A DNA stretch of 64,000 bases. Source: Ipomoea triloba. Its lineage: Eukaryota > Streptophyta > Magnoliopsida > Solanales > Convolvulaceae. Location: NCBI RefSeq assembly GCF_003576645.1, contig NC_044916.1, positions 25,914,367 to 25,978,366 of the forward strand, read 5' to 3'. Positions within the stretch are counted from its first letter, which is position 1, and the number at the start of each line of letters is the position of its first letter. A program made the position numbers and the translations under genes. This document shows, in pieces, positions 10,741 to 59,544 of this stretch. The notes beneath the pieces are model-generated. The model was given only the letters and a program-made list of their open reading frames with translations. It ran no database searches and was not told the origin of the DNA.

Positions 10741-10838
10741 TGGTTTGATAATCGAAAATTCAAACCATTGTATAGAGATCATGAGAGGATATTTTCCTTG
10801 TAAATCATAATATTATGGATCTTTATTAGCTAGACAAG

Positions 10839-11244
10839 GGCAATTTATATCGTGGACCAGGGTTTACATTGCATTGTGGACCCTGATCTAATACACAGAA
10901 TTTAACTCCATAATGCACAAAATTCATGTTCATAATACACATAAACACGATATAATAAACATGAATTAAACACTTCACATAATACACAAAATTCATGTTT
11001 ATAATGCACAGAATTCATGTTCATAATACACATACACATAAATACGTTATAATGAACATGAATTAAACACTTAACTTAATACACAAGATTCGTGTTCATA
11101 ATGCAAAGAAATCATATTCGTTATATCGTGCTTATATGTATGTGTACTATGAACATGAATTATGTGTATTATGAAGTCAAAATCTGTGTATTGGATCAGG
11201 GTTCATAGTGCACTGTGGATCCTAATCCACGATATAACGGTTGC
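10839..11244. mobile_element. non-autonomous MULE-type element, relative of the 43.6-kb MULE
   Basis: The left end reads ggcaatttatatcgtggacc and the right end, reverse complemented, reads gcaaccgttatatcgtgg. Both are followed inward by a near-palindrome with a TGCA core (10851-10890 and about 11205-11235). The interior is a degenerate array of words such as 'aattcatgttcataatacac', partly inverted about the centre. No convincing 9-bp target duplication remains. The assignment rests on terminal similarity to the complete element at 43641-54451. Confidence 0.65.
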
Positions 11245-12004
11245 TTGAGAAAGATCCATAATTACTTGAATAAATCCATATATATTTTACTTAAATTTTA
11301 TGCAAAATAGAATTTTGTCTTAAATGTGATGATATCCAATCAATTAAAAGTGGAGCTAAACATGATATTTGGATTTGGTAAGAAAAATCCAATTTACTAT
11401 ATCTAATGTGTTAGTTATAGAAATATTTTTCATGATTCTCAGCATATAAGCGCATCATGAAGTTCCCTCAATTGACTCAATATAATATAATGCAGTCCAA
11501 GTTGAATTGGAAGGAGGAAATTAATTGGGATTTGAAGAATTTATTAATAGTGATAATGTGGGATACCTTCTATATATTTATTGATATGGTTAAAACATTT
11601 CTTCAAATGCTCAGATCTAATATTTATATCAAGATTTGTGCATCAATTGCACCTAGATTTTTCCAATTCACACAAGTCCTTTAATCCATAATTTATGCCA
11701 AGATTTGGTCTGATCTCCCTTCATATATCGACTTAATCATCATTTCCCTGCTCATTAAATACCAATAGTAATCACATATTCACCTTTTGGCCCCACCCAA
11801 GACATTTTTGGCTCCTTTCGACTGACGCTAGTGGTGCTAGGTTCAGAAGGGCCAGTTAATGTTTGCCTTGAGCGAGGACGGCCTCACCAAAAAAAAACAT
11901 ATTCACCTTTTTTTGGGTGCAACTGAAGGGGACCATTCACCCCAGCTCCTTTAAGCATTGGAAAAATTAGCATTAGTTAATATTTCAAAAAGTTAATTTG
12001 AGGT
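11245..12004. other. intergenic, nothing firmly recognised
   Basis: The open frame 11457-11684 has no domain. A short block at about 11820-11900 ending in 'gaggacggcctcacc' plus an A-run could be the 3' end of a SINE or other retroposon, but the evidence is thin. Confidence 0.4.
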
Positions 12005-14413: not shown

Positions 14414-14422
14414 TATTATTCC

Positions 14423-15015
14423 GGCAAATTATGCTGTGGACCCAAGTCCACCTTGCAAGGTGGACCTGGGTCCAAAACTACGTCATTTTTGTCTCTCTCT
14501 CTCTTTTTTTTTTTTTTAAATTAGTAAACATATTGCTGAATATAGAGTTGTCCAAAAATGTGTGAATGTAGAGGTTTCAAAGTGTGAATGTAGAGTATAG
14601 AAATCGTGAATGTAGATTTATGATTGTGTGAATGTAGAGTTGCCCAGAAATGTGTGAATGTGGAGGTTTCAAATTGTGAATATAGAGTATAGAAATCGTA
14701 AATGTAGAGTTATGCATGTGTGAATCTGTAATAGAGTTAAAGAAGTTCTAGCAACTTGTAGCACTGTAATGTGTGAATGTGGAGTTCTAAAGTTGTGAAT
14801 ATGGAGTATAGGACATGTAAATATAGAGTTTTGAATGTGTGAATGCATAACAGTGGTAATATAGTTACTAAACATATAATCATGTAATGTGTGAATGTGG
14901 AGTTTACAAAGTGTGAATGTAGAGTATAGTGTATTTGAATGTAGAGGATAATGCATGTGAATGTAGACCCAGGTCCACCTTGCAAGGTGGACCTGGGTCC
15001 ACGGCAACACAACCC
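14423..15015. mobile_element. non-autonomous MULE derivative with perfect 9-bp TSD
   Basis: The ends are ggcaaattatgctgtgg and, reverse complemented, gggttgtgttgccgtgg. The 9-bp direct repeat tattattcc flanks them exactly at 14414-14422 and 15016-15024. Each end carries a palindrome around the core ccttgcaagg: the left (14437-14472) has one mismatch between arms and the right (about 14968-15001) is perfect. The 450-bp interior is almost entirely the GTGAATGTAGAG-type short repeat found in the introns of the 43.6-kb MULE. It appears to be a deletion derivative of that family and encodes nothing. Confidence 0.9.
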
Positions 15016-15117
15016 TATTATTCCCACCTCTTTAAGGCCCAAATAAATTAATAGCCCAAGTGATCTATAAGTTCATCGAAAGTTAACCCAAGAAGATAAA
15101 ATCCACTTAAGTAGGCT

Positions 15118-16199: not shown

Positions 16200-16759
16200 G
16201 CCAAATTATGCTATGAACCCAGGTCCAAAACGCATATCTGAAATAACGGTGTCGCTAATGGCATTGTTTTCTCAACCAATGATATTTTATATTTTTATGA
16301 ATATAGTTTAAAAATTGTGAATATAAAGTTAAAAAATTGTGAATATACATTCAAAAAGTGAGAATATAGATTCAAAAATTGTGTTATACTATTGAATATA
16401 GAGTTTTATAATTGTGAATACAGAGTTATGGAATTGTGAATATAGAGTTATAAAATTGTGAATATAGAGTTCAAAGATTATGAATATAGAGTTCAAAAAT
16501 TGTGAATATAGAGTTCTGTAATTTTGTATATTGAAATCTAAAATTGTGAATATTTAATTCTAAAATTGTCGATATAGAGATTTAAAATTCTAAATATAGA
16601 GTTCAAAATTTGTGAATATAGATGAATGAATTCTGAAGACTCGACAAGGAAGTAAGGAATTTTTTTTTTGAATTACAGCGTTGTTTTGCTTCAAAACGAC
16701 ACTGTTTTGGACCCGAGTATACCTTGCAAGGTGGACCCGGGTCCACAATATAACAATTG
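16200..16759. mobile_element. non-autonomous MULE derivative, family of 43.6-kb element
   Basis: The left end gccaaattatgctatgaaccc and the right end (reverse complement caattgttatattgtggaccc) match the family termini. The right end keeps a palindrome-like block around ccttgcaagg (about 16712-16744). The interior is an array of 'ttgtgaatatagagtt' words. No matching 9-bp flank is left. The segment near 16530-16580 lines up closely with the empty-site sequence of the element at 32214, so the two are close sisters. Confidence 0.75.
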
Positions 16760-20600: not shown

Positions 20601-20812
20601 GGAGCTGGAAGGAGAGATGGATAGCAGTTCGCCCATGGGAAATTAGGGTTCAAGCAGACCCAAAAAAGGTAGGCAAAACAGCAAGCTTGGGACCTGTTAA
20701 ACTTGTTGTTTCAGTCAACAATCCTCCATTGTCAAATGGTAAGATCTCTACTCCAGCAAGAAAACCATCTGACAATAATCCTGAAATTCAAACTCCCCAA
20801 GAGCCTGTTTAG
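17684..20812 (+). CDS. IQD: IQ67-domain (IQD) calmodulin-binding protein, five exons
   Basis: Exons: 17684-17758, 17941-18039, 19097-19327, 20310-20423, 20534-20812, giving about 265 residues. The start ATG gives MGWRGWYRK, a basic N-terminus usual for IQDs. The IQ67 region begins with EEIAATQIQRAFRAYK (residues 43-58), split from GRKAIRRLRGTVKLQ by a phase-0 intron at the position characteristic of the family. Later motifs are EWSSGSETMEEILQKIQ and RAMAYAFSHQ joined to WRANSGHYFGQAYYDLGK. IQD proteins bind calmodulin and act at microtubules, membranes or nucleus as scaffolds; that is family knowledge, not shown here. The acceptor of exon 3 could be 19097 or 19100 (NAGNAG). Intron 4 needs a GC donor. 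Introns 2 and 3 carry SINE-like repeats. The length is at the short end of the family. Confidence 0.9.
18785..18990 (+). repeat. tRNA-derived SINE-like repeat in IQD intron 2
   Basis: The stretch 'acatagctcagtgatcaaaa' resembles a pol III A box, and 'cagattcgaatcctcaacgg' contains a good B box (GATTCGAATCC). The spacing of about 55 bp suits a tRNA-derived SINE head. Short open frames on both strands across it are not genes. Confidence 0.55.
19900..20170 (+). repeat. SINE-like dispersed repeat in IQD intron 3
   Basis: Contains 'gggttagaatctcagcc' (B-box-like), then 'gagccggtcagctatgagca', then 'acctagactggtttatcacc', then 'gatcttttgctggctaagg', then 'ggtaatggctgcgggttt'. The same ordered segments, diverged, occur at 62430-62640, which shows that this is a dispersed family. 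The open frame 19920-20141 is the repeat read through. Confidence 0.65.
20424..20533 (+). other. GC-AG intron of the IQD gene
   Basis: The exon ends in CACCAG and the next bases are GCTAGT, so the donor is GC rather than GT. The acceptor is a normal TTGCAG at 20528-20533. Joining here restores the conserved SHQWRA motif. Reading on without splicing gives an unrelated 23-residue tail and a stop. Confidence 0.75.
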
Positions 20813-27870: not shown

Positions 27871-28369
27871 TAGTACAAAATTTGTATCACAATGTACAAC
27901 TCAATAAGCATAAAAATACATACATAAATCATGGGTAATAACATTAGTTCACTCTAAGTTTTTTTTTTAATTTAGATTTTAAATATTTATATTATTGTAC
28001 AACAACAACACAATTTTTAGAGCTTTAATATTTATATTTTAGAAAATAACTAACTGATCCTTATTAATTAAAATTTAAATGAAATCAAATTTATTTATTA
28101 TATTACTCCAATATATAATTTCTACATATATTATTTATCATTTGAGATGGATGCATGCACATGGTAATAATAATTAGAAAAGATAACTAAAATTCTAATG
28201 GTATAAGGTTTTTTTTTTTTTTTCCAAAAATTTGTATATAGTACAACTCTTATATCACAACACTTTTTCCAATAAATTGCAAAGATCAACGGCTCAGATA
28301 TAACCTCATTTTTCACCTAGGAACATCCGCACTTTAACCAACCCATATATATATAGCCTGGTTGATATG
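27871..28369. other. intergenic, nothing recognised
   Basis: AT-rich sequence with a T-run at about 28208-28222. No gene or element was supported. Confidence 0.45.
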
Positions 28370-28865
28370 CGGTCGACCTTTCCCGTGCAATCGTGTGGCT
28401 TGGTGAATTTACATATGCTTGGTGGTGCATCCACTCTAAAGTGCACCATAGGACACTCATATGTGCACTACATATTACACATAAGTGCACCATAGACCAC
28501 ACCTAAGTGCAACAGGAGTCTAAGATACTTCCTGTAATGGCTGGTGTATTTAGCTATACTTGATGGTGCACTTAGATATGTGCACCACAAACCCGCACTT
28601 TCATAGACTAGCACTTTGTGGTGCATCATAGATCACTCCTAAGTGCACCACATACCAGCACTTCATACACCACGAAAATAAACTTGGTGTAGAAAATTGC
28701 AAAAATGTCCCTACGAATTTTTCATTAGTGCACCGCATGCCAGCACTTTGTGGTACACCATAGATCACTCAAAAATGCACCATAGAGCACTCATAAATGC
28801 ACCACACGACAACACTAAGTGCACAACCGAAATATACACGGTTTAAGAAATTATCAAAATGTCAT
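28370..28865. repeat. degenerate 'aagtgcaccata' word-repeat block
   Basis: The words 'gtgcaccatag', 'atcactcctaagtgcacca' and 'ccagcactt' recur more than ten times at irregular spacing. A related short block with 'gagtgcacacac' lies at 29975-30065. The flanks contain no clear inverted ends, so whether this is the interior of an element is unknown. Confidence 0.6.
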
Positions 28866-29450
28866 AGCACTTGGGTATATCCCAAAGAATAACTAAAGTA
28901 AGAGGTGAGCTTGACCAAGGCAATCCAATTAGGAAAGAGGGTTTGGCTTCTTCTTCTCTTTTTTTCCTAGAAAGCGGGCTAAGGGTGTGTTTAGCAATGC
29001 GGTATGGTGTCTTTCAGTCCGTTGTTAAAGCGCCTTGGGCGTCTATTGGTGGATGGAGAGTCTTAGCTTAGTTCACTCGGCTATGACAAATCACCCAGGT
29101 AAGTGGCAGGCTATTCAGTTGAGGGGCAGACAGCTTGGGCGGACCTCGGACGGGTCGCTCTGGCAGTTGGCGATGTCCAAAACGTGGCCTACGACATGGC
29201 GCAAGGAGAGATATTTGATAGGAGAGCGCAACACCTAGTGGGAGACGCGTACGTCAGAAGGGGGTAGAGAGTTGTGGTCTGCTCACATATCTGCAACCTA
29301 CGGCCCTAGGAGTAGTATAAAAGGGAGGAGGGGTCTCTGTTCGAGGCATCATCATCAACTCTCGTTCTCTCTTCTTCTCCCTCAGTCAACGGCGCAACAC
29401 GTCAGTTGTCTTTGCGATCCGCTAGTTAGCAGCAATCGTTATATACAAAA
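28866..29450 (+). mobile_element. probable LTR-retrotransposon LTR fragment
   Basis: The block is GC-richer than its neighbours. It includes a TATA-like 'gtagtataaaagggagga' at about 29313 followed by 'catcatcatcaactctcgtt' and a CT-rich leader, which is the usual promoter layout of plant LTRs. Both LTR ends and any internal coding region are missing. The frames at 28871-29238 and 29272-29490 show no domain. Confidence 0.45.
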
Positions 29451-31000: not shown

Positions 31001-31800
31001 CAATTTTCCATGTGAAAATTATGAACAAATTTTAAATATTTATTTAATAGATTTAACGATTAAAAATGAAAGAAAAAAAAAAGATTAGTTTCATAAATAT
31101 TACAAACTTCAAAATTTATATTGTTCTCACCCTTTTTTTTACCTTATTTTTAATCATTAAATTTTATAGATGAATAACTCGAATTTGTCAACAGTTCTCA
31201 CAGAGGTAATGATTCTCATATGAATAAAAATATATATGGGGGCGCACTCCTGTGAGAACTGCTGCCTAGGGAAGAATTACAAACTAATTGGAACTATCCA
31301 TCAGCAAAGATCAAAAGTAATTTTTTTAAATAAAATATGATGTTATTTTTTGTAACTCAAACTTTGAAGTGTAAATAACATGTGTTTGAAGTGCAAGTAT
31401 GCGAGTAAAAATTGCAAGTAACATCACTATAAAGTACAACATTTTACAGTATAGAGTGCAAGTAATTTACCTTTCACACATTTGGTGCAACAAATGATAA
31501 CTTTAGGTATACCTAATATTGTTGCTTGGGTGTACTTTAAATTGTTGCAATCTATGATATTGTTAATTAAATGTATTGCGTAGTGTTATTACTTACACTT
31601 CAAATAAAGTTCGAGTGTATTTTATATTGTTGCACTCTATGATGTTGTTACTTGCACTCTATAGTGTTATTATTTGTACTTCAAAATTTGAGTTATTTAC
31701 AAAAACTTCACTACGTTTTTTTTTTAAATAGTTTATGATCTGTTAGTTATTTTCAAATGGACAACTCTGATTAGTTCATAGTTCTCTCATTAGCGACTAT
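31001..31800. repeat. inverted-repeat element relative plus 'ttgcactctat' word-repeat block
   Basis: 31001-31230 resembles the hairpin element at 2745 (gaacaaattttaaatattta mirrored by gaatttgtcaacagttctca). From about 31370 to 31700 the words 'gaagtgcaagta', 'gttgcactctatgatgttgt' and 'tacttgcactctatagtgtt' are repeated in both orientations. No coding potential. Confidence 0.45.
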
Positions 31801-32213: not shown

Positions 32214-32527
32214 CGGTTGTTATGCCATGGACCCAGGTCCACATTGCAAGGTGAATCCGGATCCATGTTCACAAATTTAGAATTCTATGTTCACTATTTT
32301 AGAACTTTATATTCACAGTAACAGAATTCTATGTTCAAAATTACATAACTCTATGTTAACAATTTCATAACTCTAAATTCATAATTTCATAATTCTATAT
32401 TCAACAGTATAACACAATTTTTTAATCTATATAACAAAATTGTGAATATAGAGTTCAAAAATTGTGAATATTGAGTAATGTAATTTTGTATATTGAGATC
32501 TAAAATTGTGAATATATAATTCTAAAA

Positions 32528-33050
32528 GAGTTAATTTCAACAATGGTCATCCGACTATGTTGATTTTCTAAAATTAGTCACCGACTTTTAATTTGGACAA
32601 TTTAAATTCCTGACTTTCAAATTATTTCCAGTGTTGGTCATTTCGTCAAATTTTGGTTAAGTTGAGGTCAAATGAAGGGGTAAAATTGTCCTTTCACCTA
32701 TATAGTGTATTATTACTCGTATTTCTCATGCCCTATACGTTATATATATGAATATAATCTCAGTCGAAGAGACTTCGACTGAGATTATATGGCTTCGATT
32801 GAGACTTCTACTGAGTTTATATTCATCATATATATAATGTATAGGATATGAGAAATACGAGTAATAATACACTATATAGGTGAACGGACAATTTTACCCC
32901 TCCATTTGACCTCAACTTAACAAAAATTTGACCAAAGGATCAACATTTGAAAGAATTTGAAAGTCAAGAGACCTAAGTTGTCCAAATTAAAAGTTGGGGA
33001 CTAATTTTAGAAACTCAACATAGTCGGAGGACCATTACTGAAATTAACTC
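32528..33050. mobile_element. MULE-type MITE with roughly 240-bp inverted repeats and perfect 9-bp TSD
   Basis: Ends gagttaatttcaacaatggt and (reverse complement) gagttaatttcagtaatggt. The 9-bp direct repeat attctaaaa lies at 32519-32527 and 33051-33059. The two arms are complementary almost to the centre, where 'cagtcgaagagacttcgact' forms the loop region. It has no coding capacity. A 101-bp relative lies at 63021-63121. Confidence 0.92.
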
Positions 33051-43506: not shown

Positions 43507-43640
43507 CCCACAATGGGGCAAAGTGGTAAACACTTCTATTATGTAATGTGGTCTGCAAATCACATAGGAGAAATAAATCACACTAAAAAGATTGATCATA
43601 TGCAATGGGCACGAGAATCATGCTCCACTCACTCACCATG

Positions 43641-43709
43641 CAATTGTTATGCCGTGGACCCGGGTGCACCTTGCAAGGTGCACCCGGGTCCTTAAACGGC
43701 GCCGTTTAA
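43641..43709 (+). repeat. left terminal repeat of the MULE with two palindromes
   Basis: After the terminal 15 bp comes a perfect 36-bp palindrome (43656-43691: arms GGACCCGGGTGCACC and its complement around TTGCAA). It is followed at once by a perfect 18-bp palindrome (43692-43709, arms TTAAACGGC / GCCGTTTAA). Similarity to the right end fades shortly after this point. Confidence 0.92.
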
Positions 43710-44035
43710 TGGAGGGGTGTAACGGTGCNTTTTTTTTTTTAAATATATAAACGAAGACGATTCCCTTCCTCCGCAAGTTACAGTTTGCGATTCCCTTCCT
43801 CCGGCGATTCTTCACCATTTCTTCACCATTGTTTGCGATTCTTCACCATTTCCTCCGCAAAGAGCATTTCGCCGTTTTCCGACATACTCTCATCGCCGAC
43901 GATCACTACAGCACTCGTTCCCGGAAATTTTTGCATACTATCAGCAGTCTTCAGCAGTCTTCACACTAAGCAACAGGTATTTCTTCACATTTTTTATATT
44001 TTGGGATTTTAGTTCAAAAATTTTACGTTTTATTC

Positions 44036-44690
44036 AATGTGAATGTGAGGTTTTCAAAATGTGAATATGGAGAATATGATGTGAATGTGAGGTTTTCAAA
44101 ATGTGAATATGGAGAATATGAAGCGTGAAAATGGAGTTTTGAATGTCTATATGGAGAATATGAAGCGTGAAAATGGAGTTTTGAATGTCTAAATGCATAA
44201 CATTGATAAATATAATTACAAAACGAATGTCTAAATGCATAACATTGATAAATATAATTACAAAACATATTGCCCTTGAAAATGTGTTTTGAGTGTGAAT
44301 CTAGTGTTACGAATGTGTGAATGTAAAGAGATAGTAATAGGATTACTGAACAATTATCACTGAAATGTATGAATGTGTTGTTTTCAAACTGTGAATATAG
44401 AGCATTGCTTCTGTGAATGTAGTGATTTGAGTGTGTGAATGCATAACAGTGTTGATATAAGTACTAAACATATTGCCCCTTAATGTGTGAATCTATAGTT
44501 TTCAAAATGTGAATACACAGTATATGGTATGTGAATCTACTGTATTGAATGTGTGAATGTAGAGAAGATAGTAATCCTATTACTGAACAATTATCACTGG
44601 AATGTATGAATCTGTTGTTTTCTAACTGTGAATATCTAGTATAGCTTATGTGAATATATAGTTTTCAATGTATGAATCTATAGCCCTGTG
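44036..44690 (+). repeat. GTGAAT word array in the 5' UTR intron of the ULP1-like gene
   Basis: Words such as 'gtgaatgtgaggttttcaaa', 'tgtgaatatggagaatatg' and 'gaatgtgtgaatgcataaca' follow each other with partial tandem duplications at 44036-44270. A donor (CAACAG/GTATTT at 43976-43977) and an acceptor (TTATTCAG ending 44721) frame the array as a 5' UTR intron, by inference. Confidence 0.75.
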
Positions 44691-44738
44691 GTGTTCTGTT
44701 TTTTATTTCTAAATTATTCAGTGGTACAATTGGCAGCA

Positions 44739-47700
44739 ATGGTGAACACAAGAGCTATACTTCCCTCTCAAGCTGGAGAGGCAGACAGTTCAGACTCGTC
44801 TATCCCAGCCGAAGTAAGAACAAAACAGCGTAATGATAGGCCCTCTGCCGCTGAAAAACAAACAGGGAAGAGGAAATCAGTGGAAAAAGGGGAAGGTGGT
44901 TGCGCTGAAAGAGCAGCAAAGAGAAAAACTGCAACAAAAAATCCATGCACAGATGAGGATGAAACTGTAGAGAAACAACAGAAGACATGGAATACAAGAA
45001 TGAGCCCGAAAATCGTGGCGGAGTTTGTTCAAGAGCTTACTGCTGAACAGAAAAGGGCCGTGGAAGAGATCGGATTTGGAGGGATATTACACCTCCAACT
45101 AACAAAGAGTGAAGGCCCTCTAATGAAGTACTTGATTAGGCAGTTCGATGTTTATCGCTCTGCAATCCAACTTGAAGGGGGTGAATTGCTGCTTATAGAA
45201 GAGGATGATGTTCAAAGAACATTGGGGATCCCACAAGGGAGCAACGTGGTTGAGGAGGCCACAAGATTTGAGCATCTGTCAGAAGATGGTGATAGTGCAG
45301 CATATGCCAACCTTGTGGCATCATGGAGGGAGCGATGGGGGATTGATGGTAAATCCCCAATCACAACATCAATGCCCGGGCAGATTCTGAAAAGAGGAGA
45401 CCATGGAGATATGTTTAAACGCGACTTTGTCTTATTTATAGTATCAGCAATGCTGTGTGGCCACCAAGATAGGTGTTGCAACTTTAGGATTCTAAAATCC
45501 TTGATAAACCTTGACCAGATCAAGACCTACAATTGGTGTGCCTATACACACAAGTCCATGGTCGACTCCATTCAATCTTTTCAGAAAAATGACAAGCAAT
45601 TCTTCACTGGACCCGTTGCATTCATCCTAGTAAGTTCACTTTATTTTCGATTTTTCATTACTATTTTTATAAAATAATGACTTATTTGTTTGTGAATCTA
45701 ATGTATTGAATCTGTGAATATATGGATATGAATGTGTGAATCTATAACAGATAGTAATATAATTAATGATATCTGTGAATATATACTTGTCAGTTTGTGA
45801 ATATATAGTATTGAAGGTGTGAATATATGGACATGAATGTGTGAATCTAGAACAGATACTACTGTAATTGTTGAAATATGTGAACAAGTATCACTGAAAT
45901 GTGTGAATATGAACCTTTCAAACTGTGAATCTAATGTATTGAATCTGTGAATATATGGATATGAATGTGTGAATCTATAATAGATAGTAATAGTGTATTG
46001 AATATGTGAATATACTATACTGGGTTTGTGAATATATGGACATGAATGTGTGAATATGGGCTTTTCAAACTGTGAATAACCTTCAATTCTAACTCCCTGT
46101 CTTGTGCAGCTTGTGTACTTTGACCGAGTACAGTTCAAGGGGATGAGAGTGAATAGAACATACCAAACCATTGTTGGGTGGAGTGCTGAACTTGCAAGAA
46201 AAAGGGTTAGAGAAGAAAACAAAGCAGGGTCATTTGGAAGGGGGACAGTGCTCCCTAGAATATCAAATCCTACTGATATTGCTGCTGCCACCTCCAGGCA
46301 AAATGATCAACCTCCTGTTGCTGCATTGAATATCCCATCATCAAGCGTAGATAAGGTGGCCGGGATCCTACAAAAGTTGGCTTCGACAGTAGGAGAGTTT
46401 GGTGAGGCTATGGCTGAAATTGGAAAGCAAGGAGCACCCGTAAATGTTATGAGGAAGACATTTTCGGGCTTATCAAACATGCTAAATGTTGCCAACACCA
46501 TAGAAGCCACTGCAACCCCAACATCCTCCCAGCTAGACGACATCTTCTTTGGTAGTGAAAGCTTCACTACGGCTGTGGATGCCCTTGTCGAAGCCTTTGA
46601 AAAGACAAGGAAGCAAATAGACCCTAATGCCCCTCCTTTTGACTTGGGGCTATCTCAAGCAACACAGCCATCGGACCAAATAGATGCTCCGACCTTTGAT
46701 TTGGGGCTGAGTCCATCACCAGCAGCAGCACAGCAACAGGAGGGGGATTTAGTGCTGACTCCACCACCACAACCAGCACAGCAGCAAGGGAGTGATTTGG
46801 GGCTGACTCCAACACCACCACCAGCACAGCAGCAACAGAAGGACAAGGAGCAACAGCAAGACAAGGAGAAAGAGAAGGAGAAAGAGCAAGAGACAGAGGA
46901 TGATGCGGGGGGACCGGGGATTGATGCCCTGGTGGATAGAATTGCAGGGGAAGCCACAAAAGATGCAACATTTTCAACCCCTGTTGTGACTAGAGTTCCT
47001 TTTCAAAGGGCTGATTCCCCTGCTGATGAATTTGATAGGTAATGGAATACTTTTACTTAGCAGACTCTAGAACTTAGACTACAAAGAATGATCTTAGTAC
47101 TATGTTTTTGTCAATCTATAGAATGGCTGTAAAAGTTAGCAATGAAGCCCTAAAATGTTATGAATGTGGACTACAAAAAATGTGAATGTTTAGTATGCAA
47201 TATATGAATATAAAATTATGAAGCTGTGAATCTGTGACAGAGGTGAATCTGTGAAGCTGTGAATATGGAATATATAAACTGTGAATATACAACATTAAAG
47301 CTGTGAATCTGTAAAACTGTAAATCATTTAACAATTTGTGAATATATATATAACAGATGGTGAATATACAATTAACAATTTGTGAACATAGGGATCTAAA
47401 GTTGTAAAGAAAGCATTGGGACACCTAAAACTAAACACCTTTAGGCTAAACCTCCAAAATTCTAAATTGTGAATATAGACCTCACAGATTGTGAACATAG
47501 TGATAACAAGGTGTGAATATATGGTTCTATATTTGGTAAGCATAAGCTTCTGTTTTTTGTTGACTAAATACTTCTATTATGTGAACACAGTGCATTGGCC
47601 GAGAGTGAATCGGACGTTGAGGATGTCATTACTAGAAAGAGGCCTCAACGAAAGTTCAAAAACATCCCCCTCAACCTACGGTCTCCATTCTGGAACGAGC

Positions 47701-48603
47701 ATGGGATGAAAATAAAAAATGCCACTGTCCCAGATAAACTCCTTTCGAACTATGCATTTGTACAAGTTTCTAGTGAACATCCTAAAGAGTATGTTCCATC
47801 TAAATATTTATTAATTACTTACATTAATGTGAATTGGGTAAATTTTCTATTTTTTTTTAATTTTAATTCTTTTTTTGTGGCTTTTGTAGTGAGTTACTTT
47901 TCAACTTTGGTGACATTGAGATCACTAGGGATCACTTCATCTCGCTCAGTGTTGGCCAAGTTGAAAATATCTTCTTGGATGTATGGGCATTGAGGCTCTC
48001 AATGCTTGACAAAGAGCGTGCACCCGGGCAACCAAAGAGGGTGTTTTTCAGCACAATTGCCTACGTAAGTCCTTTTTAAATATACTGTTTAAATATTGGT
48101 ATAACTGTGTTAGCTTGGTTACAGATTCACACATTCATACTAGTATATTCACAGTTTCTATACTCTAAATTCACATATTTCAATAATTACAGTAGTATCT
48201 GTTATAGATTCACACATTCATATCCATATATTCACAGCTTCAATACTATATATTCACATTCTGACAAGTATATATTTATAGATATCAGTAATTATATTAC
48301 TATCTGTTATAGATTCACACATTCATGTCTATATATTCACAACTTCAATACATTATATTCACAGTTTGAAAGGTTCATATTCACACATTTCAGTGATACT
48401 TGTTCACATATTTCAATAATTACAGTAGTATCTGTTATAGATTCACACATCCATGTCCATATATTCACACCTTCAATACTATATATTCACAATCTGACAA
48501 GTATATATTCATAGATATCAGTAATTAAATTAGTATCTGTTATAGATTCACACATCCATGTCTATATATTCACAACTTCTATACATTATATTCACAGTTT
48601 GAG

Positions 48604-48634
<31 letters not shown>

Positions 48635-49692
48635 ATCTTAGTTACAACTAGATCCCACCCACGAATGGATGAAATGTCTCCCGATGGAAAAAAAGAAACA
48701 AAACTTCTATGAGCGGATGACATATGAAATTGAGCGCCTACAAAATTTGGACATAAATGATGCGGACCTGGTGAGTTTATCAACAACACTCAGTTTTATC
48801 TAGTCACATATAAGACATTAATGACACTGTTTTTATTTTCCTTTTTTGAACTTAGATATTCTTTCCAGTGCTTCGTCACGGGCACTATTTTCTCATTTGC
48901 ATCAATGTTAAAGCCTCAAAACTTGAAATAATTGACAACAAGTCCTTAGTCCGTGGTGTTACCATGAAGGACAAGTATGGAGATTGCCCAACCCTCTTGG
49001 TAAGTTGATCACCAACTTGAGCTCCTTTTCAGTTGCTACATGTATGTGAATGTGTACTTTTCAAACCGTGAATATATAGTATATAAAGTGTGAATATAGA
49101 GTTATCAAAGTGTGAATGTATAGCATATGTAATATAATCACTGAAAATCTAACACTGAAATGTTTGAATCTGGTATTTTCAATCTGTGAATATAGAATAC
49201 ATAATCTGTGAATATACTGTTATGAATGTGTGAATGTGTAACAGTGGTAGACTTAAATATTTATGTCCAGGTTACAGCTTTAAAAGAATACCTAGCACTG
49301 GGGTCATCTTCCCTATTCTGGAAGGTGGATGAGCTAACCATAGAGGTTGTGGACATGAGTTGGAAAGAATCGAAAAATTACATTGATTGCGGACTATTTG
49401 TAATGAGGCATATGGAAACATATAAAGGGACATTGAATAAATGGAACCCGGGATTCAAAAAGCAAGCAAACTTAAATGTAAGTACACAAATACTAGCTTT
49501 GAATAATTTCTTATCTTTTTTTTTTTTTTTGCTAGCATTGCAATAAAGTATTTATTTGATCTTGTATATTTGTAGGAAAACTTCTTAATTGGATTGAGGG
49601 CCAGGTACGCCGCAACAATCATAAGGTGGCGTGCCAACATATTAAAAAACATTGTGATCAAGAAAACCAAACTCTTGTACAACAAGAAATGA
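44739..49692 (+). CDS. ULP1-type (C48) cysteine protease-like protein of the MULE, eight exons
   Basis: Exons: 44739-45629, 46110-47038, 47591-47788, 47890-48064, 48642-48770, 48856-48999, 49271-49477, 49576-49692. Together they make 2,790 bp, a whole number of codons (929 aa), with standard GT-AG borders throughout. The start is MVNTRAILPS; an upstream in-frame ATG at 44688 would lie in the proposed 5' UTR intron. Layout: basic lysine-rich N-terminus (nuclear signal-like), a conserved middle region, a Gln/Pro/Lys-Glu linker with four DLGL-like motifs (near residues 475, 494, 510, 526), then the protease domain with His784 (GHYFLICIN), Asp801 (EIIDNK) and Cys862 (YIDCGLFVM). Ulp1 proteases cleave SUMO and related conjugates. 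The usual oxyanion-hole Gln six residues before Cys is Ser here. The function in the transposon is unknown. Confidence 0.88.
45690..46085 (+). repeat. GTGAAT word array in intron 1 of the ULP1-like gene
   Basis: The intron 45630-46109 is almost wholly made of 'gtgtgaatctataacagata', 'gaatatatggatatgaatgt' and similar words. Flanking exon sequence lacks the motif. Confidence 0.85.
47155..47530 (+). repeat. GTGAAT word array in intron 2 of the ULP1-like gene
   Basis: Within intron 47039-47590, words such as 'aagctgtgaatctgtgacag' and 'attgtgaatatagacctcac' recur. The short introns 3, 5 and 7 (about 85-101 bp) have none. Confidence 0.85.
48115..48600 (-). repeat. GTGAAT word array, inverted orientation, in intron 4 of the ULP1-like gene
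   Basis: The motif appears as attcac on the + strand ('agattcacacattcatgtct', 'atattcacagtttgaaaggt') within intron 48065-48641. Its words match intron 1 in the opposite orientation, e.g. 'ctgttatagattcacacatt'. A T-run at 48607-48634 precedes the acceptor. Confidence 0.85.
49040..49255 (+). repeat. GTGAAT word array in intron 6 of the ULP1-like gene
   Basis: Intron 49000-49270 carries 'gtgaatatagagttatcaaa', 'gtgaatgtgtaacagtggta' and similar words on the + strand. Confidence 0.8.
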
Positions 49693-49749
49693 ACAGCTTG
49701 TACTCAAATGTGAATATACAATAGTTCCTTGAATTCCTGTAGAACTATG

Positions 49750-50570
49750 TTGTAATCACACACCAATAGCTTTATATTCACACACCCATAGCTTTATATT
49801 CATAATTTCAAAACACCACATTCACACTTCTCTAACTATAGAATTGACCATTGACCATAATAATCTTAACTCTGTTAACCAAATTCACAACTTAATAAAT
49901 CCAAAATCACAATTTCAATAATTATATTACTATATGTTCTACATTCACACGTTCATGTCTTTATATTCACAGCCTCAATACTCTATATTCACAGTCTGAA
50001 AAGTGCTCATATTCACCCTTCCGTTTCCATATATTCACATATTCTATACACTATATTCACACATTGAAAACTACACATTCACACATTTCAGTGATTATAT
50101 TACTATCTGTTCTACATTTCAGTTTTAAAACTAAACATTCACAACTTAATAACTCTAAATTCACAATTTCAACACTCCACAAGCATCACTAAAATGTACT
50201 AATTAATAACTCCAAAGAAATTTTATANTTCAATAATTATATTACTATCTGTTCTACATTCACACGTTTATGTCTTTATATTCACAGCCTCAATACTCTA
50301 TATTCACAGTCTGAAAAGTGCTCATATTCACACTTCCGTTTCCATATATTCACATATTCTATACACTATATTCACACATTGAAAACTACACATTCACACA
50401 TTTCAGTGATTATATTACTATCTGTTCTACATTTTAGTTTTAAAACTAAACATTCACAACTTAATAACTCTAAATTCACAATTTCAACACTCCACAAGCA
50501 TCACTAAAATGTACTAATTAATAACTCCAAAGAAATTTTATAACTAAATGTTCACAAATACAAAAAATAT
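49750..50570 (-). repeat. inverted GTGAAT words between the two convergent MULE genes, with a 315-bp duplication
   Basis: The spacer between the ULP1-like stop (49692) and the transposase stop (50575) is filled with attcac words. About 49914-50227 is repeated at about 50229-50543 with few differences, with a single N (50228) between the copies, so the duplication may be an assembly artefact. Confidence 0.8.
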
Positions 50571-50574
50571 ATTG

Positions 50575-53500
50575 TCATCTCTTATTAACATGAACTAATT
50601 CAGAACTCCCATAACTTGGATGTACAAGATATCCATCCCCAGCAATCTCAGATAAACTTCCCGACAAAATAGATTGAACAACACTCTTTGTAATTGAAGC
50701 AACCTTGTTTGCAGAACTCTTTCGCCCCCTAGCTACAGCAGACTTCTTTTCAATAATACTACTTCGCCTCTTATTACGCTCACCTTTCAATCTCCGGCTT
50801 GATGGATCTTGTACAATACCACTTGATGATGGGACATCAGACTCTTCAACATGAACATAACCAACCTCGGTTTCAACACTTTTCTTTGCACTTTGAANNN
50901 NNNNNNNNNNNNNNNNNNNNNNNNNNNNNNNNNNNNNNNNNNNNNNNNNNNNNNNNNNNNNNNNNNNNNNNNNNNNNNNNNNNNNNNNNNNNNNNNNNNN
51001 NNNNNNNNNNNNNNNNNNNNNNNNNNNNNNNNNNNNNNNNNNNNNNNNNNNNNNNNNNNNNNNNNNNNNNNNNNNNNNNNNNNNNNNNNNNNNNNNNNNN
51101 NNNNNNNNNNNNNNNNNNNNNNNNNNNNNNNNNNNNNNNNNNNNNNNNNNNNNNNNNNNNNNNNNNNNNNNNNNNNNNNNNNNNNNNNNNNNNNNNNNNN
51201 NNNNNNNNNNNNNNNNNNNNNNNNNNNNNNNNNNNNNNNNNNNNNNNNNNNNNNNNNNNNNNNNNNNNNNNNNNNNNNNNNNNNNNNNNNNNNNNNNNNN
51301 NNNNNNNNNNNNNNNNNNNNNNNNNNNNNNNNNNNNNNNNNNNNNNNNNNNNNNNNNNNNNNNNNNNNNNNNNNNNNNNNNNNNNNNNNNNNNNNNNNNN
51401 NNNNNNNNNNNNNNNNNNNNNNNNNNNNNNNNNNNNNNNNNNNNNNNNNNNNNNNNNNNNNNNNNNNNNNNNNNNNNNNNNNNNNNNNNNNNNNNNNNNN
51501 NNNNNNNNNNNNNNNNNNNNNNNNNNNNNNNNNNNNNNNNNNNNNNNNNNNNNNNNNNNNNNNNNNNNNNNNNNNNNNNNNNNNNNNNNNNNNNNNNNNN
51601 NNNNNNNNNNNNNNNNNNNNNNNNNNNNNNTGATAAACATTCACACATTCATAACTCTACATTCACAAACCCTATACTATACATTCACAGTTTCAAACGT
51701 ACACATTCACACATTTCAGTGATACTTGTTCAGTAATTATATTACTATATGTTCTACACTCACACATTTAGTACTCTAGATTCACAGCTTCTATACAGTA
51801 TATTCACAAATCAATAAGTCATTATTTTACAAAAATAGTATTGAAAATTCAAACTCAAAAGTGAATGAGTAAAATACAATAACATACCTTGACCAATACA
51901 ACTCAAACTCAGCTTCGGTGTCTGTGTACTTCAACAAACAATTAAATAGATCCATGAAATTCCTATTGTTCCTAAGTGTCTTGATGTGCTTCTTCGAGTT
52001 CTCACCGATATGCCATATGCAAAGACGATGCCGTGATGTTGTAAACACTTGAGAGATGGCAGCAGCCATGGCTGCGCATTGATCAGTCATAATGGTTTGT
52101 GGACATTTGCCACACATAGATCTAAGAAATGCTCTAAACAACCATACAAATGACTCTATCCTTTCGTTCATCAAAAAACCACACTCAAACATAATATTCA
52201 TACAATGGTGGTTCATCCCTACAAATGGACCACATATCATGTCGTACTTGTTAGTGCGATATGTTGTATCATGCACTAACAAGTCTCCAAACAACGCATA
52301 GTCTCGTCTCATTTGCCCGTCCCTCCAAAAAAAGCTAGTTAATCTTGCATCATCATCAACTTCAAAGTCAAAAAAGAAGTCAGGCTCATTACACTGCCTC
52401 CTCCTGAATATTTCAATCAACGAATTCGAATCAGTTCCATCCAAGCTCTTCAAAGACTCAGATGCCAATGAATTGTAAGCATCTCGATTGGTAAACCCAA
52501 CGAGTGGAGACCCTCCTGACTGATGTTTCAAAAACCTTATCCCATCCGCCAAGGCAACCCCACTCTTCTTTAAGTCTCTTAAGTATGAAAGTTGATTGTT
52601 TCCCACTCTTCTGTGCGAACGAAGTAGGTGACTCTTGTCTTTAGTGCTTAGCTTGTGGTTATGAGCTTTCTCGTGTTTTGTTACTGTCCACACCCCATTA
52701 CCATCTACATCGAACTGAATATATGCGCCACACCCCTTCCTTAAATCAATCTTTGAATACGCCTTAACACCACTGTTTTTCTTGGACTTACTACCAGCCT
52801 TGGAGCACAAAAATGTCTTCATCTTAACATTTTTAGTAGACCCTTGGTAGCGTTGCTTACCCTTCCTCACACTAAAACCAACTCTAAATGCATAATCGTT
52901 ATACAACTCATACGCTTCATCACCATTACTTACTACAATACCCACCAAATCTTGATCAACTGCACATATGAAATATAACCTCAAGTATGGAAAAACATAC
53001 CAAAAGAAAACAAATAAAAAGCAATCTAATGGAAATATATTCTCTATGTAGAGGGGGGGCGGGTAATGCCACACTATATATTCATATAAGCTATACTAGA
53101 TATTCACAGTTAGAAAACAACAGATTCATACATTCCAGTGATAATTGTTCAGTAATAGGATTACTATCTTCTCTACATTCACACATTCAATACACTAGAT
53201 TCACATACCATATACTGTGTATTCACATTTTGAAAACTCTAGATTCACACATTTCAGGGGCAATATGTTTAGCAATTATATCAACACTGTTATGCATTCA
53301 TACATTCAAAACTATATATTCACAAGTCCTATACTCTATATTCACACATCAAACACTATTACACACAACTACACATAAAATCATAAATCAATATGAATCA
53401 CTAATTTTACTCTAAAAAACAATTTAAAAAAAAAAACCTGGAATTGAAGTAGAATCCTCAGCATTTATACAGCCTTGATCATTGCTTGTTGAGACAACAA

Positions 53501-54041
53501 CTAAATCTGCATTCACTACAAATATAAAAAAATAAAACAGACTATCAGGAAACAGTGTGAATCTATAGTTCTAAATGTGTGAATCTACAACTATGTATCT
53601 GTGAATGTATAGTTGTATAAGTGTGAATCTAAAACTCAAATACATGGTTACACAATCAATCTAACCATAAATCCTAAATTCAAAAAAAACAAACATAAAT
53701 CTATACAATTCATCAAACAAGAATCCAAACTTAAAACCTGCAATCGAAGATGAGCCATCAACGTGTAAACTTAGTTGATCTACTGCCTCTGCCATCACTG
53801 CAAATATAAAAAATAAAACAGAGTATCAGGAAACAGTGTGAATGTAGTGTTCATAATGTGTGAATCTATCACTATGTAACTGTGAATGTAGAGTTGTATA
53901 AGTGTGAATCTAAAACTCAAATACATGGTTACACAATCAATCTAACCACAAATCCTAAATTCGAAAAAAACCTGCAATCGAAGATGAGCCATCAACATGT
54001 AAACATGAATCCAAACATGAATCTACTGCCTCTGCCATCAT
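50575..54041 (-). CDS. FAR1-related MULE transposase, partial because of an assembly gap
   Basis: Minus-strand exons seen: first exon 53972-54041 and/or its tandem copy 53738-53797 (MAEAVD...), then 53438-53515, then 51888-52959, then a gap, then a C-terminal part up to 50897 with stop at 50575. The big exon holds a FAR1-type zinc-binding DNA-binding domain (DEAYELYNDYAFRVGFSVRK, then Cys in FLCSK and RKGCGAYIQF, then HEKAHNHKLS) and the start of the MULE catalytic domain with Asp in LLVHDTTYRTNKYD and in TIMTDQCAAM, and CIWHI. The expected catalytic Glu is probably in TEAEFELYW before the donor at 51887. The C-terminus is basic and Ser-rich (RRLKGERNKRRSS). The transposase should recognise the palindromic ends; this is family inference. 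Confidence 0.88.
50898..51630. other. 733-bp assembly gap inside the transposase gene
   Basis: A run of Ns. It hides the middle exons of the transposase (probably the zinc-finger/SWIM part usual in these proteins). All open frames that cross it are meaningless. Confidence 0.98.
51635..51820 (-). repeat. inverted GTGAAT words in a transposase intron
   Basis: 'ataaacattcacacattcat', 'tattcacaaatcaataagtc' and related words fill the part of the intron that is visible beside the gap. In the sense of the transposase they read gtgaat. Confidence 0.8.
53080..53380 (-). repeat. inverted GTGAAT words in the transposase intron 52960-53437
   Basis: 'tctacattcacacattcaat' and 'tcacatttcaggggcaatat' type words recur. 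The open frame 52987-53415 on + merely reads them through. Confidence 0.8.
53438..54041 (-). repeat. tandemly repeated first exon-intron unit of the transposase gene
   Basis: Three exon-like pieces (53972-54041, 53738-53797, 53438-53515) each end in a TC-A-TTC-ATT-C(C/G)AG-like donor context followed by gttttt. Each of the two lower ones is preceded by the same 'aaataaaacag' type intron end with tttgtag/tttgcag acceptors. The introns between them share long near-identical stretches ('caaatacatggttacacaat', 'cagagtatcaggaaacagtg'). Two pieces encode MAEAVD...HVDGSSSIA; the third has diverged. All joins keep the frame. Confidence 0.75.
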
Positions 54042-54385
54042 TGAAGAAGAATTGAAAAGAAGAATTACGATGGTGAATCGAAATAATATCGCGATGTCGA
54101 ATCGATGATGAATCCAACGAGAATTGCGATGATGAATGAGAGAACTGCAATGATGAATCAAACAAAGGCGATGAGTTGTTTTGCGAGAATTGCGGCGATG
54201 ATGAATTGTTTTGCGATGATGTTGCGGCGATGATGAATTGATTTGCGATGATGGTGCATGACTGGACTGTGAAATCGCCTTCCTTCCTCTGCTCTGGTTC
54301 TCCCGCTGGTAGTCGACAACCGCCTGCCTATTGCTCCGTTAACGGCGTTAATTAACAAATTTTTTTTTATTTTAAAAAAAGCCAT

Positions 54386-54451
54386 AAACGACGTCGTTTT
54401 TGACCCAGGTGCACCTTGCAATGTGCACCTGGGTCCACGGCATAATTTGCG
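54386..54451 (-). repeat. right terminal repeat of the MULE with two palindromes
   Basis: The 34-bp palindrome at 54402-54435 (arms GACCCAGGTGCAC / GTGCACCTGGGTC, core with one mismatch) and the 14-bp perfect palindrome AAACGACGTCGTTT at 54386-54399 correspond to those at the left end. Arm sequences differ from the left end yet stay self-complementary. Confidence 0.9.
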
Positions 54452-54665
54452 CTCACCATGTGTAATATGTTCGTAAGTCGTAACTTAGAGGAGACAGTTA
54501 TGGCCTTATGGGCAATAACTGGGCTTCTAATTGTCCACTTGCTTTCACTTAGTATTTGTGACAGCCCATTATCATTAAACCATTGGGCCAAAATTATATT
54601 AGACCATATATGCATCGAAGAATAACTTAAGGTTGTATGTGATCATCAAGTGTTTGATGAGTGAA

Positions 54666-57045: not shown

Positions 57046-57405
57046 TTTTAACAACTGTTATACCCTGGACGGGGTGTATAATGCATTGTGGATCCTGGTC
57101 CTAAATGACATAGTTTGTTGTTTAATTCACGTTACAGTTTGTTTTTTATTTTATTTTATTTATTTATTTACTGTAAAGCATGTGTATGTGTCTTGTGTTA
57201 TGCGTTTCTATGTTTCATGTTATGCAATTCTGTACCTTAAGCATATGAATTATGTACCTAAAATAAAGTGAATATAACATGCACTTTTGTGTTTTGTACT
57301 ATGCGTTTTTGTGTCTTGTGTTATGCGTTTGTGTGTTGTATGTTATGCGTTACTAAAGTAAATATAAAACATGTGTATGTGTCTTGTGTTATGCGTTTTT
57401 GTATC

Positions 57406-59544
57406 CAGGGGCAGAAGTAAAGGGGGTGTATTCAATCATGACTTTCATAGAATTTTAAATACTTTTATGAACTTTAAAAGTTTGAAGGTATTCAATTCAA
57501 ACTTTTAGAGAGTATTTAAAAGTCATGCGGTATTCGATCAAGATTTTTAAAGAGTTTTTAAAAGCTAAGTCATGTGGTATTTAATTAAAACTTTTAAAGA
57601 ATCTTTAAAAGTCACACGTGGTATTCAAAAAGTTATGAATTTGTAAAGACTTTTTAATTTTAGAACTTCTGTATACTTTTATATATTTTTCCTTCTCAAA
57701 TATAAGTAGTTGAAATCTAACCCCCATGAAGGTTTTTTTTTTTTTTTTTCTCTCTCTTTCTCTATTTAAACTCTATTTTTTCTCCTTATTTAAAATTTTA
57801 AACTTTATAAACTTTATACCTAAATTCAATAAATCATTTTTTCTTCATTATCCTATATTTTCTACATAACTAAACTCTACCAATTTTTTTCTCTCTCCTA
57901 AACTTTACAATCTTCCTCTAAAAATTCAAAATAATATTATTTTTATTTCATTGTTGCTTGTTGCTTGTATATTTTGATTTTTTTTCTATGAACTTTGTAT
58001 CCCTAATTTCTAAACTTTTTCTCCTAAATACATGAGCAGAGTAAATTTTTTTTATTTATCACCGTCAACTTTTACTATATGTTTCATAATATTCATATGT
58101 TTATTCGTAATATATTTTTTTTTTCTTTTTTCTTTTTAACAACATGCTATTACGATTAGTGAACTATTGTTCGCAATAGCAATTTGAGGCTACAAAGAGG
58201 AGCATCTTATTGTTGTTAGCAGTCCCATATTGTTATTGCAAATAATAGCTCTTTGTTTAATACCTAGCAGTATATCAAATATAAAATTTATATATATTAT
58301 TAATTTTTTTAATTTTATGCAACTAGTAATTATATTTTTTTAAATATTAATTTCTCAAGAAAAAGTAATTATATTTTTAAGTATTTTATTTGAACAATTC
58401 TATAACTATAAATTTTAGTGTTTAATATTGTTATGAATTGCTTATGAAAGTTTCAATTTAGAATTTTAATGACTTTTGTAGACTTTTTAAAATAAAAAAA
58501 GTTGATAAAAGTTTATGCAAGTTTTTTATACAGACTTTTATAGAGTCTTACAAAGTTTTAAAAAGTTTTGAACGACTCTATGAAAGTTAATAAAAGTTTA
58601 TTAAAATCTATCATTTTAAAAGTTTTTAAAAATCTACAAAAGTAATGATTGAATACACCTCCTTTAAGTGTAAGTTATGGGGGGCCTTGCCCCCCCCCCC
58701 CTCCCCCTCCCCCCACCTTACCCCAATTGTTTTAATATTATATATAATATTAAAATTTATTAAAATTTTGTTATCACTTTAAGATATTTGTCCCCCCTCT
58801 CACTTAAATTAATTTTATAGGCTAAACTATAAACTTCTTCATCTTCTTTAACTTTTACAGTTCTCTCTCATTTCAAATTATGTATTCCCTATATTGTTGA
58901 CTCACATCCAAATCTCATTTAACATACCTACTAGTTTATCTATTTAGAACCATACATATATATGTCATATACGCAATAACAAGATAATTTGTCATTATTA
59001 AAATTTATGCATATTTTTAAAGTTAATTTTTGTTTCATATTTTATTGTTTATGTTAAATAGTTGTTTTGTATGATTGTAAATAATAGATATCAATGTGCA
59101 TTTGTTTGGTTAATTATTCAGATTTGTGATTATGTGGTAAATTTTGTATTTAATTTAACATGCATAATAATGTAAAAAATAGTATAGTATCTGTATTTGA
59201 GAAAACAATTGCTATTATGTTATGTTGTGAAGTTGGTAGTTTTCAAGAAATAATCAATATTCTTTTAGATCTTCTTCATGCAGATGAGATGGATGTCTCT
59301 GTCCAAAGAGTAAGATATAATAGTTTCCCTTCGGGGTCTTCCAAATTTCAATGTACCGCAATAAAAAAAATCAATAGACTTTTAAAACATGTGTGAATGT
59401 TTTCATTCTTTCAATCATACACAACAATGTACATTGAAAAACATATTGTTATTTTGAAATATGTTAAATGGATATTAGTGTATTTGATTTAGTACTTCAA
59501 CCGTAGTTGGCCCCCCGCACTATCTAATCCTGGCTCCACCCCTG
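57406..59544. mobile_element. non-autonomous hAT element with perfect 8-bp TSD, nested
   Basis: Ends caggggcagaagtaaa and (reverse complement) caggggtggagccaggatta. The 8-bp direct repeat tttgtatc lies at 57398-57405 and 59545-59552. Inverted internal G/C-runs (ggggggccttgccccccccc and ttggccccccgc) lie in the right part. The open frame 59160-59396 has no domain. It contains a further insertion at about 57423-58663. Confidence 0.85.
57423..58663. mobile_element. inverted-repeat element inside the hAT
   Basis: Ends gggggtgtattcaatcatga and (reverse complement) ggaggtgtattcaatcatta. The arms continue for over 100 bp as degenerate inverted 'acttttaaaagtt' words. The hAT sequence continues on both sides (cagaagtaaa / tttaagtgtaag). 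The target duplication is ambiguous (aagt on each side is possible), so the superfamily is left open. Confidence 0.7.

Follow-up and report, generated by a model that had tools for sequence, protein, structure and literature searches.

Sequence-specific anti-silencing by transposon-encoded proteins acting on motif arrays is established in Arabidopsis, where VANDAL21/Hiun combines the protein VANC21 with arrays of the motif YAGTATTAY (Hosaka 2017, PMC5735166; Sasaki 2023, PMC10398659). In the main texts of these reports, VANC21 motifs are described as lying in arrays of uniform orientation within introns, between genes and in terminal non-coding DNA (PMC5735166), the motif-bearing non-coding regions are the target of RNA-directed methylation in VANDALs (PMC10398659), VANC and its targets change while VANA stays (PMC5735166), and no motif period is named. 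VANC21 is a transposon-encoded anti-silencing protein whose structure was solved together with its target DNA; our literature search found no paper describing this structure. DUF1985 is the marker of Arabidopsis VANC, and the accessible accounts describe VANDALs as having no terminal inverted repeats or degenerate ones, some of the group having them. Here we analyzed a 64,000-nucleotide stretch of the Ipomoea triloba genome (contig NC_044916.1, positions 25,914,367–25,978,366, forward strand; termed the window), harboring a Mutator-like element (MULE) at 43641–54451 whose long non-coding segments are filled with the short word GTGAAT. By analogy with VANDALs, we consider it likely that these arrays would be bound in cis by the gene-1 protein of the same element, which appears VANC-like with an Ulp1-type (C48) tail.

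A second set of described elements carries Ulp1 domains. In the accessible text of a review (PMC13317346), KIU/Kaonashi are Ulp1-bearing VANC genes of MULEs, described for elements without terminal inverted repeats and said to recognize their own motifs and to hypomethylate their own family, and Ulp1 in VANC-type genes is said to be conserved across the eudicot clade. Ulp1-bearing MULEs are likewise reported from melon, rice and grapevine (van Leeuwen 2007, cited in PMC13317346; Benjak 2008, PMC2528002, as far as their accessible text goes).

Results

Word arrays in the non-coding DNA of a two-gene element

The element is bounded by identical 9-mers, a 9-bp target site duplication of CTCACCATG (43632–43640 and 54452–54460), and possesses terminal inverted repeat regions on the left (43641–43710, plus strand; palindrome GGACCCGGGTGCACC.. 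plus AAACGGCGCCGTTT) and on the right (54390–54451, minus strand), both with approximate inner limits. The first 41 bp of the left terminus share 93% identity with the inverted right end. Gene 1 on the plus strand is followed by a spacer and by the convergent gene 2 on the minus strand, a transposase with FAR1 and MULE domains (PF03101, 2.1e-19; PF10551, 1.8e-25). The characteristics of a MULE, namely a transposase domain with FAR1, the 9-bp target duplication and terminal inverted repeats, are all present; the absent or degenerate terminal repeats that loosely mark VANDALs are not seen. Both terminal repeats contain a long palindrome (43650–43691, reading GGACCCGGGTGCACCTTGCAAGGTGCACCCGGGTCC, and 54402–54442), followed by a AAACGnCGnCGTTT-like block.

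Gene 1 comprises eight exons with GT..AG introns and yields an open product of 929 residues, its intron limits being based on canonical splice sites and this open product. The transposase intron limits are putative, and an N gap at 50898–51630 renders one transposase stretch invisible.

Counted on both strands, the ten long non-coding segments contain 107 GTGAAT sites over a combined 4,662 bp, with densities of 14.6–31.2 per kb; in exons and in the remainder of the window the density is about 1 per kb. The gene-1 exons contain 3 sites in 2,790 bp, the transposase exon sequence examined none in 1,378 bp, including the word-free main exon with the FAR1 and MULE domains (51887–52957, minus strand), and the three remaining transposase 5' pieces 2 in 474 bp; the rest of the window contains 59 in 53.2 kb, of which 26 fall within three small derivatives. 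On the gene-1 side, forward arrays occupy the inferred 5' untranslated region (UTR) intron (44036–44690; 15 words, all forward, in the segment 43976–44738), intron 1 (45630–46109; 15, all forward), intron 2 (47039–47590; 10) and intron 6 (49000–49270; 7), whereas intron 4 (48065–48641; 16 ATTCAC) and the intergenic spacer (49693–50590; 21 reverse, 1 forward) run in the opposite orientation. Four transposase-side segments complete the set, two of them inferred introns with reversed arrays (51631–51885, 6 reverse and 1 forward; 52961–53440, 7 reverse) and two of them 5' segments with four forward words each (53521–53738 and 53801–53968).

Orientation is uniform within each block, apart from one opposite word each in the spacer and in the 51.6–51.9 kb segment, and varies among blocks, intron 4, the spacer and two transposase segments being reversed. 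A sequence-only reading of this DNA had proposed the filling of ten long segments, the orientation switches and the presence of the word in three derivatives at 14423, 16200 and 32214, and all three proposals are borne out, the derivatives containing 13, 8 and 5 sites. Its further statement that the short introns are free of the word holds for introns 5 and 7 but fails for intron 3 (101 bp), which contains one GTGAAT. Within the spacer array, positions 49914–50542 form a near-identical 315-bp tandem duplication (98% matches), a recent expansion.

A 22-bp register and constraint on the word

The words follow a 22-bp period that the earlier reading did not contain, with a repeat unit of about TGTGAATATAtAGtAtTgAAT. 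Exact 22-bp spacing was observed for 65 of 96 successive same-strand words (spacings within 120 bp), and lag-22 identity in the non-coding segments was 0.447, compared with a mean of 0.306 over lags 2–69. At +22 bp from a word, 79% of the letters in the element match the word again, as against 11–42% at 18–21 and 23–26 bp. Over the 462-Mb genome, on which all genome-wide counts were made, TGTGAATnTAnAG pairs occur 2,119 times (1073 + 1046) at 22 bp and 17 times (11 + 6) at 21 bp, while the backwards-read control yielded 0 at each spacing. Seven such pair places lie inside the window, all in the element or in two derivatives.

We compared intron 1 among 17 distinct copies (23 loci minus six duplicates), in which its length varies from 329 to 1178 bp with 26–34 GTGAAT per kb and constant orientation. 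Word sites were defined as the 22 consensus positions that deviate from TGTGAAT by no more than one base, and only aligned columns shared by 12 or more copies were considered. Minor-allele cells amounted to 30 of 2,332 (1.3%) for the seven word columns versus 285 of 5,229 (5.5%) for the spacer columns between words, rendering the word about fourfold less variable; when an equal number of blocks was placed at random 5,000 times, no placement gave a value as low. Exon 1 (21 loci) varies by 1.7, 0.8 and 3.0% and exon 2 (20 loci) by 1.5, 1.2 and 2.9% at codon positions 1, 2 and 3, respectively, with gapped exon matches excluded from the codon-position and random-placement analyses and seven duplicate loci removed there. 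The word is thus constrained about as strongly as first and second codon positions.

These data bear on the idea of a neutral minisatellite, in which a 22-bp unit would spread by slippage or unequal exchange wherever coding selection permits. Fast copy-number change as in intron 1, common higher-order tandem duplications and the scarcity of the word in exons would all be expected from such an expansion, and spacer variability may in part reflect misalignment. Nonetheless, the word in aligned copies is less variable than both the spacer and third codon positions, its density stays near constant while intron 1 changes in length, ten separate segments carry array blocks, which occur in both orientations, and families with different words share the same register. 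We consider a neutral origin improbable, and a purely neutral satellite is disfavored by the word conservation together with the random-placement test.

Related families keep the register and replace the word

Further gene-1 families emerged when a relative of 37% identity was used as the query. The exon-1 proteins form the clusters F0 (the window element), F1, F2 and F3 with between-family median identities of 40–47%; four loci outside the clusters (L031, L036, L050, L051) were excluded from the family counts. The 7-mers recurring most at 22 bp in the flanks, with duplicate loci kept, were TGTGAAT for F0, GGTACAT for F1, TGTGTAT for F2 and GAAACTG for F3, and 22 bp accounted for 468 of 569, 20 of 24, 170 of 205 and 14 of 18 successive spacings below 60 bp, respectively (seven duplicate loci removed; the crude flanks include exon 2, which lowers densities). 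The family's own word was the commonest of the four at 26/26 F0, 7/12 F1, 12/12 F2 and 4/4 F3 loci, counts which keep duplicates, so that the 26 F0 loci represent fewer elements, several overlapping one element. Family-specific motif arrays in non-coding DNA, as expected of a VANC system, are therefore found, if weakly in F1.

Two 12.7 kb stretches, one of F2 and one of F3, exhibited the same layout of gene 1, spacer and convergent transposase. In these, the +22 match peaked at 74% (F2) and 70% (F3), with other offsets not exceeding 50% and 35%, and 43 of 45 F2 words and 32 of 33 F3 words lay outside protein-matching stretches, the two exceptions in F2 falling in a weak protein-matching stretch (4763–5014) that probably spans an intron. 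The F3 stretch has inverted termini of 45 bp (76%); none were found in the F2 stretch. The design of a palindrome with a AAACGnCGnCGTTT-like block recurs in other letters at both ends of F3 and at the left end of F2. At three further loci picked by gene-1 similarity, two of F0 and one of F3, the family words numbered 66, 46 and 4 sites, and any other family word at most 1. Genome-wide, we counted 11,054 F2 word pairs at 22 bp (5363 + 5691) versus 831 (369 + 462) in the backwards control, which suggests that derivatives are numerous. This count is about five times that of the F0 pair pattern, which is longer.

Equal word density in unrelated AT-rich DNA was found neither by the density comparison nor by the genome-wide counts. 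The word as AT-rich background was rejected based on the density contrast, the family comparison and the genome-wide pair counts.

Transposase identity to the window element is 69% for F3 and 65 and 79% for two pieces of F2, with between-family identities of 60% for FAR1 and 80–81% for the MULE domain, and gene-1 identity is 40–41% for the domain and 29% for the middle region. Together with the word replacement, these values indicate that the transposase is retained between families as the word and gene 1 diverge, much as described for VANA relative to VANC and its targets (PMC5735166). They also bear on a different reader of the word, the FAR1 zinc finger of the transposase or a host factor, which could act in end pairing, transposase titration or transcription factor recruitment. 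The transposase does contain a FAR1 domain, whose lower conservation relative to the MULE domain would permit some change in specificity, and the miniature derivative at 14423 retains both ends and word. However, the word sites are scattered through the whole interior and not concentrated at the ends, the terminal design is kept despite the word replacement, and the word is wholly replaced between families whose transposases remain 65–79% identical, which makes binding by the transposase less likely; overall, we regard this explanation as rather unlikely.

A role of the arrays as structural or methylation-poor DNA, through exclusion of nucleosomes, a part in splicing or evasion of methylation via CpG scarcity, appears more remote still. 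CpG is indeed scarce in the arrays (observed/expected 0.15 versus 0.44 in exons; 3.0 versus 21.1 per kb) and 22 bp corresponds to nearly two turns of the helix, yet CHG sites remain frequent (23.8 per kb versus 31.8 in exons), the arrays also occur in the spacer and in gene-less derivatives, and a role of composition needs neither a conserved word nor a family-specific replacement.

Predicted domains of gene 1

Exon 1 of gene 1 (44739–45629) encodes a VANC21-like domain at residues about 87–297, whose predicted structure matches VANC21 (9LNJ). Exon 2 (46110–47038) encodes a variable region with a tandem repeat (three 48-bp units, 46698–46843), and in two family comparisons gene 1 is less conserved than the transposase, both features being described for VANC. 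Exon 3 (47591–47788) is followed by exon 4 (47890–48064), near whose end a C48/Ulp1 match starts that continues through exons 5 (48642–48770), 6 (48856–48999), 7 (49271–49477) and 8 (49576–49692, including the stop), all on the plus strand. The C-terminal C48/Ulp1 domain, residues 723–903, matches Pfam PF02902 with 5.4e-8 and 33.4 bits (cut-off 20.7), and gene 1 thereby has the C-terminal domain of KIU/Kaonashi. In two homologue searches by sequence, scoring only the 7,993 and 7,994 candidates with most shared words, 15 of 15 and 18 of 18 listed matches bear Ipomoea names.

A search of solved structures by sequence profile revealed no relevant match. Pfam DUF287 was not reported for gene 1, and membership in DUF1985 by sequence was rejected for want of a match. 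One locus, L073, contains a plant mobile domain gene at 1051–1914 (PF10536, 7.2e-53) that also matches DUF1985 weakly. Searched alone, it has a weak similarity to the F1 gene-1 domain (29% over 85 residues, E about 4e-4), and no 22-bp period was detected at this locus. On sequence grounds, L073 is a possible distant link between plant mobile domain, DUF1985 and gene-1 proteins.

Derivatives and other periodic zones in the window

The miniature derivative at 14423–15015 (plus strand) consists of termini and 13 words and is flanked by the target duplication TATTATTCC (14414–14422 and 15016–15024); its 35-base word pair recurs among the listed genome-wide pair places. A second one at 16200–16750 (plus strand, limits approximate) contains 8 words, and no target duplication was found for it with up to one mismatch allowed. 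For the third at 32223–32560 (right limit approximate), one terminus was found, with 4 forward words and 1 reverse word.

Additional 22-bp-period zones are present in the window. Positions 10801–11301 contain seven family-2 words (AATACACA/TGTGTATT) and may represent a derivative from a different MULE family, and positions 28201–28901 show a different unit, AAGTGCACCATAGAACACACAT, which is possibly a further family word. Zones at 31301–31701 (unit TTGCACTCTATAATGTTATTAC) and 57101–57601 (unit TTTTGTGTTTTGTGTTATGCGT) were likewise observed, and others were flagged at 20801, 24601 and 59501.

Discussion

Taken together, the element probably carries a sequence-specific anti-silencing system, in which both the binding by the predicted gene-1 protein and the removal of silencing are extrapolated from VANDAL biology. 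Among the cis roles that the sequence-only reading had offered for the word, silencing avoidance is favored, since the modeled gene-1 domain matches VANC21 and VANC21 motifs form similar non-coding arrays; transposase binding, also offered there, has become less likely. The exon-1 domain would recognize the word TGTGAATnTAnAG. At sites 22 bp apart, about two helical turns, numerous protein molecules would line up next to one another along the introns, the spacer and the remaining non-coding DNA, and silencing would thereby be countered both in the complete element and in every derivative that has termini and arrays. Each MULE family would possess one protein/word pair, confining activation to that family, and miniature derivatives keeping termini and word would be mobilized and desilenced in trans. 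The Ulp1-like tail may, by inference only, act on SUMO-linked silencing factors. RNA-directed methylation, if aimed at the same non-coding regions as reported for VANDALs, would drive word turnover.

Several observations weigh against this interpretation. The structural match to VANC21 occurs at only 12–14% sequence identity, and, according to the aligner, mainly helical folds can attain such Z scores through a common arrangement. Both structural models were built on nearly the same 16 sequences. In the own ranking of Foldseek nothing was significant, the best E of 0.14 belonging to nuclear receptors, whose domains make up the listed top 50 with TM scores of 0.10–0.19. Pfam DUF1985 is absent from the matches of gene 1 and its relatives, in a search where the HMMER filters discard most weak matches, and its one match genome-wide, below the cut-off, lies in the plant mobile domain gene of L073. 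The F1 family is weak: all four words are missing at three of its loci, GAAACTG is as frequent as its own word or more so at two loci that overlap, and no lag-22 excess was detected across the whole F1 flanks. The F3 exon-1 domains of four loci contain 4 AGAAACTG in 2.5 kb. Moreover, the spacer of intron 1 is more variable than third codon positions (5.5 versus 3.0%), which weakens it as a yardstick and leaves the comparison of the word with third positions unaffected; this excess suggests that misalignment among repeats or exchange between them inflates spacer variation in part. Finally, the coexistence of word and gene 1 would also be compatible with the transposase as reader.

More tentatively, and at somewhat less than an even chance in our judgment, the 22-bp register would be the conserved part of recognition and the word its interchangeable part, with a VANC-like protein of Ulp1 MULEs forming a lattice along the transposon whose 22-bp step is set by protein–protein contact, and with families diverging by exchange of the word read per subunit at constant step. 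Were this so, many of the sites, which number in the thousands across the genome, would be miniature derivatives that exploit the system.

If the anti-silencing interpretation is true, it extends VANC-type anti-silencing from Arabidopsis to morning-glory MULEs without Pfam DUF1985 in gene 1 and offers several natural protein/word pairs on one register. This would make two questions directly testable, namely by what means a short motif can specify an extended target, through its density and the 22-bp step, and how the specificities of protein and motif evolve in concert. The interpretation would also account for the existence of a miniature derivative made up of termini and word. The protein/word pairs could serve as orthogonal epigenome-editing modules.

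In the titles and abstract openings of the literature found, no such system is mentioned for Ipomoea, and, as far as its accessible text goes, this literature describes no fixed 22-bp register common to families with different words. The account of KIU/Kaonashi in the review reportedly goes back to Sasaki 2022 in EMBO J, which could narrow the novelty.

As described for VANDAL21/Hiun in the accessible reports, the Ipomoea element encodes a second protein beside the transposase, has dense same-orientation arrays of a short motif in introns, intergenic and terminal non-coding DNA, expands and contracts these arrays between copies, and uses motifs that differ among related families. Compared with the transposase, the accessory protein is likewise less conserved; it includes a variable region with repeats, and its modeled domain matches VANC21. 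In contrast to VANDAL21/Hiun as described there, the Ipomoea element has clear terminal inverted repeats, a gene 1 without a Pfam DUF1985 or DUF287 match and with a C-terminal C48 domain, and one 22-bp register in each family examined. With KIU/Kaonashi, as the review presents them, it shares an Ulp1 domain in the VANC-type gene of a MULE, but differs from these non-TIR elements in its terminal inverted repeats; with the reported elements of melon, rice and grapevine it shares the combination of a MULE with an Ulp1-domain gene.

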